Positions 11,711 to 16,923 of a stretch of 64,000 nt of DNA are shown piece by piece (positions within the stretch are counted from its first letter, which is position 1; each line of letters starts with the position of its first letter). Below the pieces are notes generated by a model that was not told where the DNA came from, did no database searches, and saw only the letters and a list, made by a program, of their open reading frames with translations. This DNA is from Paenirhodobacter hankyongi. GTDB lineage: Bacteria > Pseudomonadota > Alphaproteobacteria > Rhodobacterales > Rhodobacteraceae. The stretch spans positions 1 through 64,000 of the forward strand of contig NZ_RCHI01000008.1 of NCBI RefSeq assembly GCF_003664585.1. The letters run 5' to 3'. The position numbers and the translations under genes were made by a program.

Positions 11711-12952
11711 ATGCCCGATTTTCCCCTCGCCATCGACTTCGGCACCTCGAACTCCGCCGCGGCGGTGCTGATGGGCGGCCTGCCGCGCCGCATCCCCATC
11801 GAGACCGGCGCCGACACCCTGCCCACCGCGGTCTTCTTCCCGGCGAATGGCGGGCCGATGCGGATCGGCGCAGCCGCGGCCGAGGCGCTGATCGCCGGCA
11901 CCGAAGGACGCTACATGCGCGCGCTGAAAAGCGTGCTCGGCACCTCGCTGCTGAACGAACCGCGGCTGATCGGCGGCAAGCGGCGCAGCGTCGCCGAGAT
12001 CATCACCGCCTTCCTGATCGAGCTGCGCAGCCGCGCCGAGGCGACGAGCGGTCTGCGCTTCACCCGCGCGCTTTCCGGCCGGCCTGTGCATTTCCATACC
12101 AACGACCTCGAACGCGACCGCCGCGCCGAGGACGACCTGCGCGCCTGCTATCTGGCCGCGGGCTTCGAGGCGGTCGAGTTCCTGCCCGAACCCGAGGCGG
12201 CGGCGCTCGCCAGCACCGGCAATGCCGCGGCGGGCGAGACCGGGCTCGTCGTCGACATCGGCGGCGGCACCTCGGACTTCACCCTGTTCCGCACCACCGG
12301 TGCCCGCCCCGAGATCATCGCGAGCCACGGCATCCGTCTGGGCGGCACCGATTTCGACCATGCCGTGTCTATGGCCCATGTGATGCCCGCCCTCGGCCTT
12401 GGCGGCAGCCTGCGGCGCGAGCTTGGCTCGGGCCTGCTGCCGGTGCCGCAGGCGATCTACGTCGACCTGTCGACCTGGGCGAAGATCCCCTTCCTCTACA
12501 CGCCCGAGACCCGGCGGATGGTGGCCGGCATGGTCCGCGTCGCGGTCGAGCGCAAGCAGATGGAACGCCTTGCCACGGTGCTGGAAGAGGAACTCGGCCA
12601 CGAGATCGCCTTCGCCGTCGAGAAGGGCAAGATCGCCGCGAACATGCGCGAGGAGGCCGCCCGCATCGCGCTTGGCTTCGTCGAGCCGCGGCTCGCCTGT
12701 GAGGTGACGCCCGCCTCGCTCGATGCCGCGCTTGCCCGCTACCGCGCCGATCTGGCCGAGGCGATGGCCGAGACGCTGCGCCTTGCCGGGCTGGCGCCCG
12801 GGGATGTCAGCCGCGTCGTCTTCGTCGGCGGCGCCAGCCTGATGCACCTGGTGACGGAAGAGGCCGCGCGGCTCTTCCCGCAGGCCACGATGCAGCAGGG
12901 CGACGCCTTCACCGCCGTCGTCGACGGGCTCGCCCTCGCCACCGCGGTCTAG
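11711..12952 (+). CDS. Hsp70-like ATPase (YegD type)
   Basis: This 413-residue protein is an actin/Hsp70-fold ATPase. It shows phosphate-1 motif AIDFGTSNSAAAV (residues 6-18), phosphate-2 VVDIGGGTSDFTLF near 180 and adenosine motif VVFVGGASLMHLV near 375. It lacks the C-terminal substrate-binding domain of DnaK, which places it with YegD-type proteins of unknown client. Its stop codon TAG (12950-12952) overlaps the stop of the convergent nikR gene in the palindrome CTAG. Confidence 0.85.
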   Translation: MPDFPLAIDFGTSNSAAAVLMGGLPRRIPIETGADTLPTAVFFPANGGPMRIGAAAAEALIAGTEGRYMRALKSVLGTSLLNEPRLIGGKRRSVAEIITAFLIELRSRAEATSGLRFTRALSGRPVHFHTNDLERDRRAEDDLRACYLAAGFEAVEFLPEPEAAALASTGNAAAGETGLVVDIGGGTSDFTLFRTTGARPEIIASHGIRLGGTDFDHAVSMAHVMPALGLGGSLRRELGSGLLPVPQAIYVDLSTWAKIPFLYTPETRRMVAGMVRVAVERKQMERLATVLEEELGHEIAFAVEKGKIAANMREEAARIALGFVEPRLACEVTPASLDAALARYRADLAEAMAETLRLAGLAPGDVSRVVFVGGASLMHLVTEEAARLFPQATMQQGDAFTAVVDGLALATAV

Positions 12953-13425
12953 AAGCTCGCCAGCACCCGCAGGTGGCTGTGGGCGTGGTTGCCGCCGCCC
13001 TCATGCACGTGGTGGTGGTGCTCGTCCTCGGCCACCGGGATCAGCCCGAGCGTGCCATGCAGCACCCCGCGTTCGAGGAACAGCGCCTCGGCATAGGCGC
13101 GCACCTCCGCCACCCGCCCGCGCATCACCGCCACCTCGAGCGCATGACGATGGTCAAGCGGCACCGACAGCGCCGCCACCGTCTGGTCGTGGCGGTCGAG
13201 CCGCCCCTGCGGCAGCCGCGTCGCCAGGCTGCGCACCGACGGGTCGACGACATAGCTCACCGTGCCGAAGCACTCCGCCGCCTCGGGCGCACCCGGCCGC
13301 GCCGCCAGGGCCCGGCGCAACAGGTCGCGGATCGCCTCCGACCGGCTTTGCGCCCCGGTCTGCTCGAGATAGGCGTCAAGCTCTGCCGCCAGGTCGTCGT
13401 CAAGCGTGATCGTCGTGCGCTGCAT
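12949..13425 (-). CDS. nikR: NikR-family regulator lacking the canonical nickel ligands
   Basis: This 158-residue protein has an N-terminal ribbon-helix-helix DNA-binding domain (MQRTTITLDDDLAAELDAYL, residues 1-45) and a C-terminal ACT-like regulatory domain. It aligns without gaps to E. coli NikR through residue 100. The DNA-contact residues R3 and T5 are kept. The four high-affinity nickel ligands of E. coli (His76, His87, His89, Cys95) are Leu76, Ser87, Pro89 and Ala95 here. A tail, EDEHHHHVHEGGGNHAHSH, adds eight histidines. A perfect NikR-type operator lies in the divergent region before the nickel transporter operon, so it very likely controls that operon, but the sensed metal is uncertain. 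Confidence 0.85.
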   Translation of the reverse strand: MQRTTITLDDDLAAELDAYLEQTGAQSRSEAIRDLLRRALAARPGAPEAAECFGTVSYVVDPSVRSLATRLPQGRLDRHDQTVAALSVPLDHRHALEVAVMRGRVAEVRAYAEALFLERGVLHGTLGLIPVAEDEHHHHVHEGGGNHAHSHLRVLASF

Positions 13426-13511: not shown

Positions 13512-13539
13512 GTATGCATAACTTTCAAAAAACGCATAC
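13512..13539. promoter_or_regulatory. NikR-type operator GTATGC-N16-GCATAC
   Basis: A perfect 6-bp dyad with exactly 16 bases between the half-sites matches the geometry of the E. coli NikR operator GTATGA-N16-TCATAC. It lies 13 bases before the nikK start and about 87 bases before the divergent nikR start, so it can repress nikK and possibly nikR. Confidence 0.85.
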
Positions 13540-13552
13540 GACAGGAAAAGCC

Positions 13553-14320
13553 ATGCCCCGCCTCCTCCCGCTGCTGCCGCTGGCCCTGATGCTGGCCGCC
13601 TCCCCCGCCGCCGCGCATTTCCAGGAGCTGATCCCCTCGGCCGATGTCCTGCCCGAGGGCGGCAAGGTCACCTTCGATCTGGTCTTCACCCACCCGGTCG
13701 AAGGCGGCCCGGTGATGGCGATGCAGAAACCCGCGGGCTTCGGCATGGTGATGAACGGGCAAAAGACCGACCTGATGCCGGCGCTGCGCGAGGCCCCGGT
13801 GGGCGGCACCCCCGCCTGGGCCGCCGAGGCCGATCTGGCCGAGCCCGGCGCCGCGGTCGTCTGGGTCGCGCCGCAGCCCTATTGGGAACCGGCCGAGGGC
13901 AAGTTCATCGTCCATTACGCGAAGGTGGTGGTCGATTCCTATGCCTCGGGCGAGGGCTGGGACGCGCTGGCCGGCCTGCCGGTCGAGATCGCGCCGCTGA
14001 CCCGCCCGAACGGGCTGTGGACCGGCAACGCCTTCACCGGCGTGGTGCTGAAGGCCGGCAAGCCGGTGCCCTTCGCCGAGGTCGAGGTCGAGTTCGTCAA
14101 CGACGGCTCGGTCGTGCCGCCGAATGACGATTTCATCACCCAGGTGCTGAAGGCCGACGCGAACGGCACCTTCAGCTATGTGATGCCGCGCGCCGGCTGG
14201 TGGGGCTTTGCCGCGCTGATCGAAGGCGATACACCGATGACGTCGCCCGAGGGCACCGAGGTGCCGGTCGAGGAAGGCGCGCTGATCTGGGTGAAGGCAA
14301 CCGACATGGGCGGCAACTGA
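13553..14320 (+). CDS. nikK: Nickel ECF transporter accessory periplasmic protein NikK (DUF4198)
   Basis: This 255-residue protein has a signal peptide ending ASPAAA before HFQELIPSAD, so the mature N-terminus is likely His or Ala-His. It belongs to the DUF4198 family that accompanies nickel/cobalt ECF transporters. The rest is beta-rich, with a carboxypeptidase-regulatory-like segment near 150-200 (NAFTGVVLKAGKPVPFAEVEVEF, in two parts). It presumably binds or delivers Ni2+ to NikM. AGGAAA precedes the ATG at 13553. Its stop overlaps the next start (TGATG). It is the first gene of nikKMLQO and the one directly behind the NikR operator. Confidence 0.8.
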   Translation: MPRLLPLLPLALMLAASPAAAHFQELIPSADVLPEGGKVTFDLVFTHPVEGGPVMAMQKPAGFGMVMNGQKTDLMPALREAPVGGTPAWAAEADLAEPGAAVVWVAPQPYWEPAEGKFIVHYAKVVVDSYASGEGWDALAGLPVEIAPLTRPNGLWTGNAFTGVVLKAGKPVPFAEVEVEFVNDGSVVPPNDDFITQVLKADANGTFSYVMPRAGWWGFAALIEGDTPMTSPEGTEVPVEEGALIWVKATDMGGN

Positions 14321-14931
14321 TGGCACATATCCCCGACGGGATCCTGGCGGCGCCGGTGCTGATCGGCGGCGCGGTGCTGGCGGCGGGCGGCGTGGCGCTC
14401 GCCCTGCGCCAGATCGACGACCGCGCGATCATCCGCACCGCGATCCTGTCGGCCACCTTCTTTGCCGGCTCGCTGATCTCGGTGCCGGTCGGGCCGTCGA
14501 GCGTGCATCTGCTGCTGGCCGGGCTGATGGGGGTGATGCTGGGCAGCGGCGCGTTCCTGTCGGTGCTGGTGGGCCTTGTCCTTCAGGCGCTGCTGTTCGG
14601 GTTCGGCGGGCTGACCACGCTCGGCGTCAACACGGTCAACATCGCGCTGCCCGGCGTGCTGCTGGGCCTGGCCCTTGGCCCGACGATCCGCCGCACGACG
14701 CGCCCCGGCCTGCGCGCGGGGCTTGCGGCCCTTGTCGGCGCGCTGTCGGTTCTGGGCACCGGCGGGCTGGTCGCCGCCTGCCTCGCGCTCTCCTCCCCCG
14801 CCTATGCCCCGGTCGCGAGCGTGCTGCTTGCCACCTATCTGCCCCTCGCCCTGGTCGAGGCCGCGATCACCGCCGCGGTGGTCGGCTTCCTCGCCCGGGT
14901 CGAGCCCGACGCCCTGAGGCCCGCCGCATGA
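14320..14931 (+). CDS. nikM: Nickel ECF transporter substrate-specific membrane subunit NikM
   Basis: This 203-residue integral membrane protein is of the CbiM/NikM family. It starts MAHIPDGIL, where the conserved N-terminal His of the metal site follows Ala; removal of Met would leave Ala-His at the N-terminus, equivalent in spacing to the Met-His of other family members. A second conserved His is in GPSSVHLLLAGLMG near residue 60. About six membrane helices are visible. It defines metal specificity with NikK and NikL and is energised by NikQ/NikO. Its start overlaps the nikK stop and its stop overlaps the nikL start. Confidence 0.9.
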   Translation: MAHIPDGILAAPVLIGGAVLAAGGVALALRQIDDRAIIRTAILSATFFAGSLISVPVGPSSVHLLLAGLMGVMLGSGAFLSVLVGLVLQALLFGFGGLTTLGVNTVNIALPGVLLGLALGPTIRRTTRPGLRAGLAALVGALSVLGTGGLVAACLALSSPAYAPVASVLLATYLPLALVEAAITAAVVGFLARVEPDALRPAA

Positions 14932-15515
14932 CCCGCATCCCCCTTGCCCTTGCCCTACTGATCGCGCTCGCCTCGCCCGCCGCGGCGCACAAGCTCAAGG
15001 TCTTCGCCACCGTCGCGGGGACCGAGGTCACCGGCTATGCCTTCTTCGTCGGCGGTGGCCGGGCGCAGGGCACCGGCTGGATCGCGCGGGACGCCGCCGG
15101 CACGCCGGTGGCCTCGGGCAAGACCGACGCCGAGGGCCGCTATCGCTTCACGCCGCCGGCGGGCGCGGGCGATCTGACCGTGACGGTGAACACCGAGGAA
15201 GGGCATATCGCGCAGGCCGTGCTGCCGGCCGCAAGGCTTGACGGCACGCCCGCGGCCACCGGCAGCGCCGGCCCCGCGGCCGCCGCCTCGCTCGCCGCGG
15301 CGGGCGTGGTGACCGCCGCCCCCGCCGCTCCGCCCCGCGACGACGCCGCCCTTGCCGCCCTCGTTGAGGCCGCGGTGCAGCGCCAGGTCGAGCCGCTTCA
15401 GGAACAGATCGAGGCGATGGATGCCCGCCTGCGCCTGACCGACGTGATGTCGGGGATCTTCCTGATCATCGGGCTCGCGGGCATCGGGCTGTTCCTGCGC
15501 GGGCGGCGGGGATGA
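14928..15515 (+). CDS. nikL: Nickel ECF transporter accessory protein NikL
   Basis: This 195-residue protein has a signal peptide ending ASPAAA before HKLKVFATV, the same junction as in NikK. The periplasmic region (about 20-100) has a carboxypeptidase-regulatory-like beta fold (GKTDAEGRYRFTPPAG). An Ala-rich linker follows, then a short helical segment and a C-terminal membrane anchor (MSGIFLIIGLAGIGLFLRG). This is the NikL architecture, which replaces NikN in NikKMLQO systems. It overlaps both neighbours by ATGA, so expression is coupled. Confidence 0.8.
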   Translation: MTRIPLALALLIALASPAAAHKLKVFATVAGTEVTGYAFFVGGGRAQGTGWIARDAAGTPVASGKTDAEGRYRFTPPAGAGDLTVTVNTEEGHIAQAVLPAARLDGTPAATGSAGPAAAASLAAAGVVTAAPAAPPRDDAALAALVEAAVQRQVEPLQEQIEAMDARLRLTDVMSGIFLIIGLAGIGLFLRGRRG

Positions 15516-16222
15516 TCCCGGCCGATCTGCGCTTGCGGCTGGTGGCGGCTGTCCTGCTGGTGCTGGCCGCCTCGCAACTTGCCCATCTCGGCCCGGCGAT
15601 GGCCGCGCTCGCACTCGCCCTGCTCCTCGCCCTCGCCGCCCGCCCGGACCGCGCACTCTGGCGCCGGTTGCGCCATGTCGAGGGCTTCGTGGCGCTGCTC
15701 CTTCTCACCCTGCCCTTCGCCGTGCCGGGTGCGCCGCTGCTCACCCTCGGCCCGCTCAGCGCCAGCCTCGAGGGGCTGAGCCGCGCCGCACTTCTGGCCG
15801 CCAAGGTCACCACCGCGGCGCTGGTGCTGCTCGCCCTTCTGGGCACCGTCGAGCCGATCCGCCTTGGCGCGGCACTCCACGCCCTGCGCCTGCCCGAACC
15901 GCTGGTGCGGCTTTTCGTGCTGACCCTGCGCTATCTCGGCCTGATCGGCGACGAGGCGCGGCGCCTGCGCGAGGCGATGCGCGCCCGCGCCTTTCGCGCC
16001 CGCACCGACCGCCACACCTGGCGCAGCTTCGGCAACCTGATCGGCATGCTCCTGGTGCGCGCCCTCGACCGCGCCCGCCGGGTCGAGGAGGCGATGCGCC
16101 TGCGCGGATTTTCCGGCCGCTTCCCCCATGCCGCGCTCGCCGCCCCCACCGCACGCGACTGGACGGGCTTCGCGCTTCTGACTGGCCTTGCCGCCGCCGC
16201 GCTGTTACTCGACAGGCTATGA
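15512..16222 (+). CDS. nikQ: ECF transporter transmembrane coupling subunit NikQ (CbiQ family)
   Basis: This 236-residue membrane protein links the substrate subunit to the ATPase. Hydrophobic helices occupy residues 5-130 and the last 20 residues. Two cytoplasmic coupling motifs with the Ala-Arg-Gly/Ala pattern are visible (EAMRARAF near 155 and EEAMRLRGF near 195). The start is the ATG of ATGA at the nikL stop, and its own stop overlaps the nikO start in the same way. Confidence 0.88.
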   Translation: MIPADLRLRLVAAVLLVLAASQLAHLGPAMAALALALLLALAARPDRALWRRLRHVEGFVALLLLTLPFAVPGAPLLTLGPLSASLEGLSRAALLAAKVTTAALVLLALLGTVEPIRLGAALHALRLPEPLVRLFVLTLRYLGLIGDEARRLREAMRARAFRARTDRHTWRSFGNLIGMLLVRALDRARRVEEAMRLRGFSGRFPHAALAAPTARDWTGFALLTGLAAAALLLDRL

Positions 16223-16923
16223 TCCCGCTTCTGTCCCTCACCGATGTGCGCGTCTGCCGCGGCGAAAGCCCGGTGCTCGACGCCGTGTCGCTGACCCTGC
16301 GCAGTCGCGACCGGCTGGCAATCGTCGGACCGAACGGGGCGGGCAAGACCACGCTTCTGCGCACCCTCGTCGGGCTCGAACGCCCCGCCTCGGGCCGCGT
16401 GCGGCTCTTCGGGCAGGACTGCACGACCGAGGCCGAGTTCCGCGCCGCCCGCCCGCGCATCGGCTTCCTGTTCCAGGACAGCGACGACCAGCTGTTCTGC
16501 CCGACCGTGCTCGAGGACGTGGCCTTCGGCCCGCTGAACACCGGCTGCACCCTGCCCGAGGCCGAGGCGCGCGGCCGCGAGACGCTCGCGGCCCTTGGCA
16601 TCGCCCATCTCGCCGAGCGTGTCACCCACCGGCTCTCGGGCGGCGAGAAGCGGCTCGTCTGCCTTGCCGGCCTCCTGGCGATGCGCCCCGAGGTGCTGCT
16701 GCTCGACGAACCGACGAACGGCGTCGATGCCGCGAACGGGGCGCGGCTGCGCGCGGCGCTTGCGGGGTTCGACGGCGCGATGATCCTCGTCTCGCATGAC
16801 GAGGGCTTCGTCGCCGAGCTTGCCACCCGCGCGCTGCTGATCGCGGACGGCCGCCTGACCGAGGCCGAGATCCACACCCACCCGCATCTGCACGCGCATC
16901 CGCACCTGCACCCCCATCCCTGA
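16219..16923 (+). CDS. nikO: ECF transporter ATP-binding subunit NikO with histidine-rich tail
   Basis: This 234-residue ABC ATPase has Walker [10 protein letters not shown] (about 36-44), Q-loop [11 protein letters not shown], signature LSGGEKRLV near 139, Walker [11 protein letters not shown] near 160 and switch His in LVSHDEG. It powers nickel uptake through NikQ. The last 18 residues, from IHTHPHL to HPHP, are alternating His repeats, which could store or sense metal on the cytoplasmic face. It is the last gene of nikKMLQO. The ilvD gene follows after about 100 bases. Confidence 0.9.

Follow-up and report, generated by a model that had tools for sequence, protein, structure and literature searches.

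A NikR homologue of Paenirhodobacter hankyongi with all four high-affinity nickel ligands replaced belongs to a clade carrying a candidate relocated metal site

The window, that is, the whole stretch of 64,000 nucleotides of Paenirhodobacter hankyongi DNA that was analysed, carries a variant nikR gene at positions 12949 to 13425 of the reverse strand. Its translation is a protein of 158 aa with an ATG start and zero internal stops, composed of an RHH DNA-binding domain, a NikR_C domain and a His tail. The gene had been placed beside a nickel transporter operon in the original prediction made from the sequence, and profile matches did find a divergent nikKMLQO operon on the forward strand, with the same gene order in relatives. 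It consists of a nikK-like gene (DUF4198; 13553 to 14320), nikM/cbiM for the ECF substrate-specific component (14320 to 14931, start codon assigned in the present analysis), nikL for a NikL family nickel/cobalt ECF subunit (14928 to 15515; NF058648), nikQ/cbiQ for the ECF transmembrane component (15512 to 16222), and nikO/cbiO for an ECF ATPase with a His-rich C terminus (16219 to 16923). The NikM N terminus reads MAHIPDG in the window and in some relatives (L188-L190 compared) and MHIPDG in others; if the Met that precedes Ala were cleaved off, His would again stand second. Between nikR and nikK, a pattern search located a NikR-type operator, GTATGC-N16-GCATAC, at 13512 to 13539, which is the sole match to GTATGM-N16-KCATAC in the 3.8-Mb genome of the window. 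It had been called a perfect NikR operator; the 6+6 palindrome is indeed perfect, but only 10 of the 12 bases agree with the Escherichia coli consensus GTATGA-N16-TCATAC. In the same genome, three matches to urease alpha and genes for the NiFe hydrogenase large subunit were found. Rfam models detected no cobalamin riboswitch in the window and one tRNA only.

Pfam assigned residues 3 to 40 of the window protein to RHH_1 and residues 54 to 128 to NikR_C, with 39.7 bits for PF01402 (cut-off 20.5) and 64.3 bits for PF08753 (cut-off 22), indicating a NikR architecture. With the curated NikR models, the protein scored 131.4 bits versus a cut-off of 83 for NF002815 and 124.6 versus 175.45 for TIGR02793, and both models matched all 56 aligned members of the clade described below at E ≤ 0.001. 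A phmmer comparison aligned residues 1 to 131 with E. coli NikR (PDB 1q5v) without gaps (E 1.3e-26), and Leu76, Ser87, Pro89 and Ala95 fell on His76, His87, His89 and Cys95, the nickel ligands of E. coli NikR (PMC7055735 section 2.1). The codons for residues 76 to 95, which lie at 13141 to 13200 of the reverse strand, retain His79 and His92, and the alignment register is fixed because the flanking A84, L86, V88, H92, L96 and E97 match. The ungapped alignment thus confirmed the replacement of all four high-affinity ligands, and the window protein, having no His3Cys site, was therefore not filed as a canonical NikR.

The original prediction had named a sequencing or alignment error restoring the ligands as its refutation and had held that the gene is no decayed relic; both points came out in its favor. 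Sinirhodobacter ferrireducens carries the same protein at 99% identity and His87, His89 and Cys95 are absent from 68 distinct relatives, which makes a sequencing error unlikely. A shifted alignment, with His92-x-His94 as replacement motif, was rejected, since His92 occurs in 68/68 variants whereas His94 is not conserved and, among the variants listed, is confined to the window sequence and the relatives closest to it (L001, L006, L014, L015, and L028). Decay was also rejected: the frame is intact and dN/dS was 0.03 to 0.30 in 11 of 12 pairs, the exception being L017/L041 at 0.52, where the start codon may have been set too early.

Alignment with many alphaproteobacterial NikRs, a check that had been proposed with the prediction, revealed that the variant constitutes a whole clade of 68 distinct sequences. 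In the same family as the window genome, NikR_C was found in 13 of 295 genomes, 11 of them with the variant and 2 with a canonical protein. A scan of genome contigs gave at least 80 named NikR loci, among which 65 were variant (L014-L078), 8 were an Arg variant and 7 were canonical. Holders of the variant include Sinirhodobacter, Rhodobacter capsulatus, Cereibacter, Salipiger, Pannonibacter, Ancylobacter, Kaistia, Methylobacterium and Pseudoroseomonas. In a phylum sample, NikR_C matched in 48 of 398 genomes, and the 42 proteins newly read comprised 33 canonical ones, one clade variant (L178), one partial sequence (L179) and seven other departures. The tree, for which 110 rows were aligned, 102 were distinct and 101 were used after L107 was dropped, placed the 68 variants on one branch (support 100/99, length 0.83) among canonical proteins. 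L108 and L109 had very long branches, and the unstable L109 fell inside the variant clade. L109 carries Arg76, Gln87, Pro89 and Tyr95, and its locus contains an exact GTATGA-N16-TCATAC at 1923.

Throughout the clade His87, His89 and Cys95 are absent (68/68), and His76 is absent in 53 of the 68 rows and kept in 15. Residue 76 is L/H/Q/M, residue 95 is S/A/T/M, and Tyr60 and His62 are lost in all 68 variants, these positions holding V/L/I/M/A/C and Q/P/L/S/T, respectively. Pro89 and Arg119 are found in 68/68 variants and Ser87 in 67/68. Ligand losses of other kinds were also seen. The Arg variant (L079, L081, L082, L084, L088, L090, L092, and L093; Beijerinckiaceae/Rhizobiales) has His87 and His89 changed to Arg within RTRLDHRHC and has Phe123; its eight sequences form a branch of their own (100/99), separate from the main variant clade. 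L108 and L173-L176 (HVFLEDDQS type), L107, L166 and L169 (HVHL...T type), and L177 (N-L-C-R) are perhaps separate NikR_C lineages.

A hidden canonical paralogue was rejected as a general answer to the ligand loss, given that 47 of 50 clade genomes, and likewise the window genome, contain a single NikR_C protein. The count covers 50 of the 64 loci first tried, with L018, L021, L030, L042, L048, L052, L053, L055, L057, L068, L069, L072, L075 and L077 left out. Three genomes depart from this pattern: those of Pseudoroseomonas wenyumeiae and Ancylobacter oerskovii (L204 and L205), each with a variant and a canonical NikR, and that of Rhodobacter viridis, with two NikR_C copies. The original prediction knew of no described NikR of this kind, and at the level of titles and abstract openings the literature likewise yielded no description of such a clade; a prior mention in subscription papers is possible, and the supplement of PMC2667541 includes a NikR tree.

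In 42 of the 68 clade members, the 300 bp upstream of nikR contain an operator with at least 10 of 12 bases matching, compared with 0.17 expected from shuffles that preserve base composition (mononucleotide) and not dinucleotides; the other 26 have none there. By the same test, 2 of 22 canonical rows and 0 of 7 Arg-variant rows were positive. With the exact pattern GTATGM-N16-KCATAC, a single site was present in 7 of the 11 variant genomes searched, the other 4 having none at all; it was also present in 1 of 2 genomes with a canonical NikR and in 0 of 7 that lack NikR. When one mismatch was allowed, the scan of 26 genomes came near its own control level, and exact sites alone were therefore used. 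Thirteen exact-site loci were read in clade genomes without an operator at nikR, a set that excludes the second Cohaesibacter exact site, and 10 of them have nikK/nikM or a binding-protein gene as neighbors (Kaistia, two Ancylobacter, two Cereibacter-type, Phycocomes, Pelagibacterium, Cohaesibacter, R. capsulatus, and one MAG). The R. capsulatus site, at L195, is the single exact operator of that organism. The operators at L184, L185 and L182 adjoin no recognised nickel transporter. In Methylobacterium L184, the exact operator stands before an ORF starting MSPFLTRLLASASALGLSTLPGYA, with no recognised nik transporter beside it; by its resemblance, we presume this ORF to encode an exported protein or a TonB-dependent receptor. 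Among the 65 variant loci listed, ECF nik genes were found within 6 kb in 33 and a NikA-like binding-protein motif in 10; by the tests used, 22 have neither transporter type within that distance. The four binding proteins checked beside clade operators were all SBP_bac_5.

The alignment of 56 members has 19 invariant positions, 8 of which are His or Cys and none of which is an E. coli ligand: Cys52, His79, His92, His123, His139, His141, His149 and His151. Four of these, Cys52, His79, His92 and His123, lie in the folded domain, occur each in 68/68 variants, and are candidate ligands that had no place in the original prediction. That prediction had looked to the C-terminal tail (residues 131 to 158; 12952 to 13035 of the reverse strand) with its eight His as a possible new site. 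The eight His are present, and the tail could plausibly contribute to such a site, but it does not appear to be a loose one, because its HxH motifs are invariant and an ordered terminal strand is predicted at residues 149 to 154. The full set, defined as Cys52, His79, His92 and His123 plus two spaced HxH motifs, was found in 68/68 variants, 10/22 canonical relatives, 4/33 canonical rows of the phylum sample and 0/8 Arg variants. Of the 22 canonical rows, 18 are alphaproteobacterial, and L080, L083, L085 and L091 come from outside the Alphaproteobacteria; the tail of one canonical relative, L003, is nearly the same as that of the variants. The second metal-site pair, at the domain interface, is retained as well, with Glu30 in 68/68 and Asp34 in 67/68 variants.

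An AlphaFold2 monomer model built with the 56 sequences had a pLDDT of 87.8, and its tail formed the strand at 149 to 154, with 86 for the last block and 67 to 71 for the loop before it. The canonical control L087, modelled with 22 sequences, gave a similar C-terminal strand with 72 for the last block. By Foldseek, the predicted metal domain gave a match of 1.1 A to Ni-bound E. coli NikR (1q5y), covering 80 columns. In the ferredoxin-like strand order, as we take it to be, the start of strand 82 to 89 should face the end of the partner subunit's strand, and His79 of the partner would then come near His92, beside the emptied pocket.

In comparison with E. coli NikR (1q5v, 2hza, and 1q5y; 3od2 soaked with excess Ni), the window protein shares the RHH and NikR_C fold, the Arg28-Ser29-Glu30/Arg33/Asp34 region, a similar operator and a nickel-transporter neighbor, whereas it lacks His76, His87, His89 and Cys95 as well as Tyr60 and His62, and ends in a His tail of 28 residues that is absent from E. 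coli NikR. Canonical alphaproteobacterial NikRs, such as L087 from Roseivivax sediminis, keep the full His3Cys site, although some of them also carry Cys52, His79, His92 and His123 with two HxH motifs. The Arg variant, named RTR after its motif, likewise has lost His87 and His89 and has a His-rich tail; it differs in keeping His76, Tyr60 and Cys95, in having Phe123 and in its separate branch. Helicobacter pylori NikR (2cad and 2caj) provides a precedent for nickel outside the His3Cys site, but it keeps that site, and the relevance of its extra sites is described as unclear (PMC9860126).

Given that all four ligands are lost and the role is seemingly kept, other residues probably sense the metal. 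Judging from sequence comparison, we consider it fairly probable that the window protein is a NikR-type repressor that still controls nickel uptake, with its metal site relocated from His3Cys to the retained His/Cys set and the tail. The variant NikR most likely would still bind the NikR operator and control nickel uptake, and a metal, most likely nickel, would be held by Cys52, His79, His92 and His123 together with the two HxH motifs of the folded-back tail; the eight residues as ligands of one metal are a candidate site, and the Glu30/Asp34 interface pair is kept in addition. Metal bound at this candidate second site would make the tetramer more rigid and position its DNA-binding domains for contact with the operator; plentiful metal would then turn off nikKMLQO, or the NikA-type ABC transporter in relatives. 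Regarding its origin, the sensing site may have been swapped in evolution while fold, operator and targets were kept, the accessory His/Cys set and HxH tail, which some canonical relatives also have, taking over once His3Cys was gone and giving rise to a second alphaproteobacterial NikR class; the chances of this seem to us to fall slightly below even.

A changed ligand set often goes along with a changed metal preference. With the ligand set altered in the variant NikR, the same repressor with the same relocated candidate site might sense cobalt or zinc and not nickel, although we regard this as unlikely. The families matched by NikM, NikQ and NikO bear cobalt names, and another NikR homologue, located beside a zinc transporter, has been proposed as a zinc sensor (PMC3087415). 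Nevertheless, the operator is of the type used by nickel NikRs, NikKMLQO and SBP_bac_5 transporters are among the neighbors, the NikL match is to a nickel/cobalt model, the window has no cobalamin riboswitch by Rfam, and its genome encodes ureases and hydrogenases.

Less probable again is that nickel control has been lost and that the protein represses without metal or responds to another signal such as pH. The disappearance of all high-affinity ligands fits such a regulator, and even nickel-free H. pylori NikR shows weak DNA binding (PMC7949043), but eight invariant His/Cys residues are then hard to account for. Constitutive repression in particular is unlikely, because the single operator precedes uptake genes and the genome encodes ureases and hydrogenases; a constant block on the sole operator-marked nickel importer would make little sense beside nickel enzymes.

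The full set partly pre-exists in canonical relatives, and another role is therefore possible: the His/Cys set may serve folding, zinc binding or tail docking, as the control L087 also has the strand. It is quite improbable that the set and tail are just an inherited structural or zinc site and that sensing proceeds through the low-affinity Glu30/Asp34 interface alone: the full set in 10/22 canonical relatives, the tail strand predicted there too and the retained Glu30/Asp34 agree with it, as does the fact that E. coli NikR has such an interface site of low affinity (PMC7055735 section 2.1), yet the set is fixed where the main site is lost (68/68 versus 10/22 and 4/33).

The relocated site within a repressor of nickel uptake remains our preferred reading. 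Conservation of the His3Cys site across NikR homologues has been described (PMC9860126), and the site is central to accounts of NikR nickel selectivity and allostery. The ligand change is masked by the automatic annotation "nickel-responsive regulator NikR". With a clade that lacks His3Cys but is still linked to operators and transporters of the same kind, one can ask how much of the allostery needs that site, and the presence in the clade of laboratory organisms such as Rhodobacter capsulatus makes direct testing possible.
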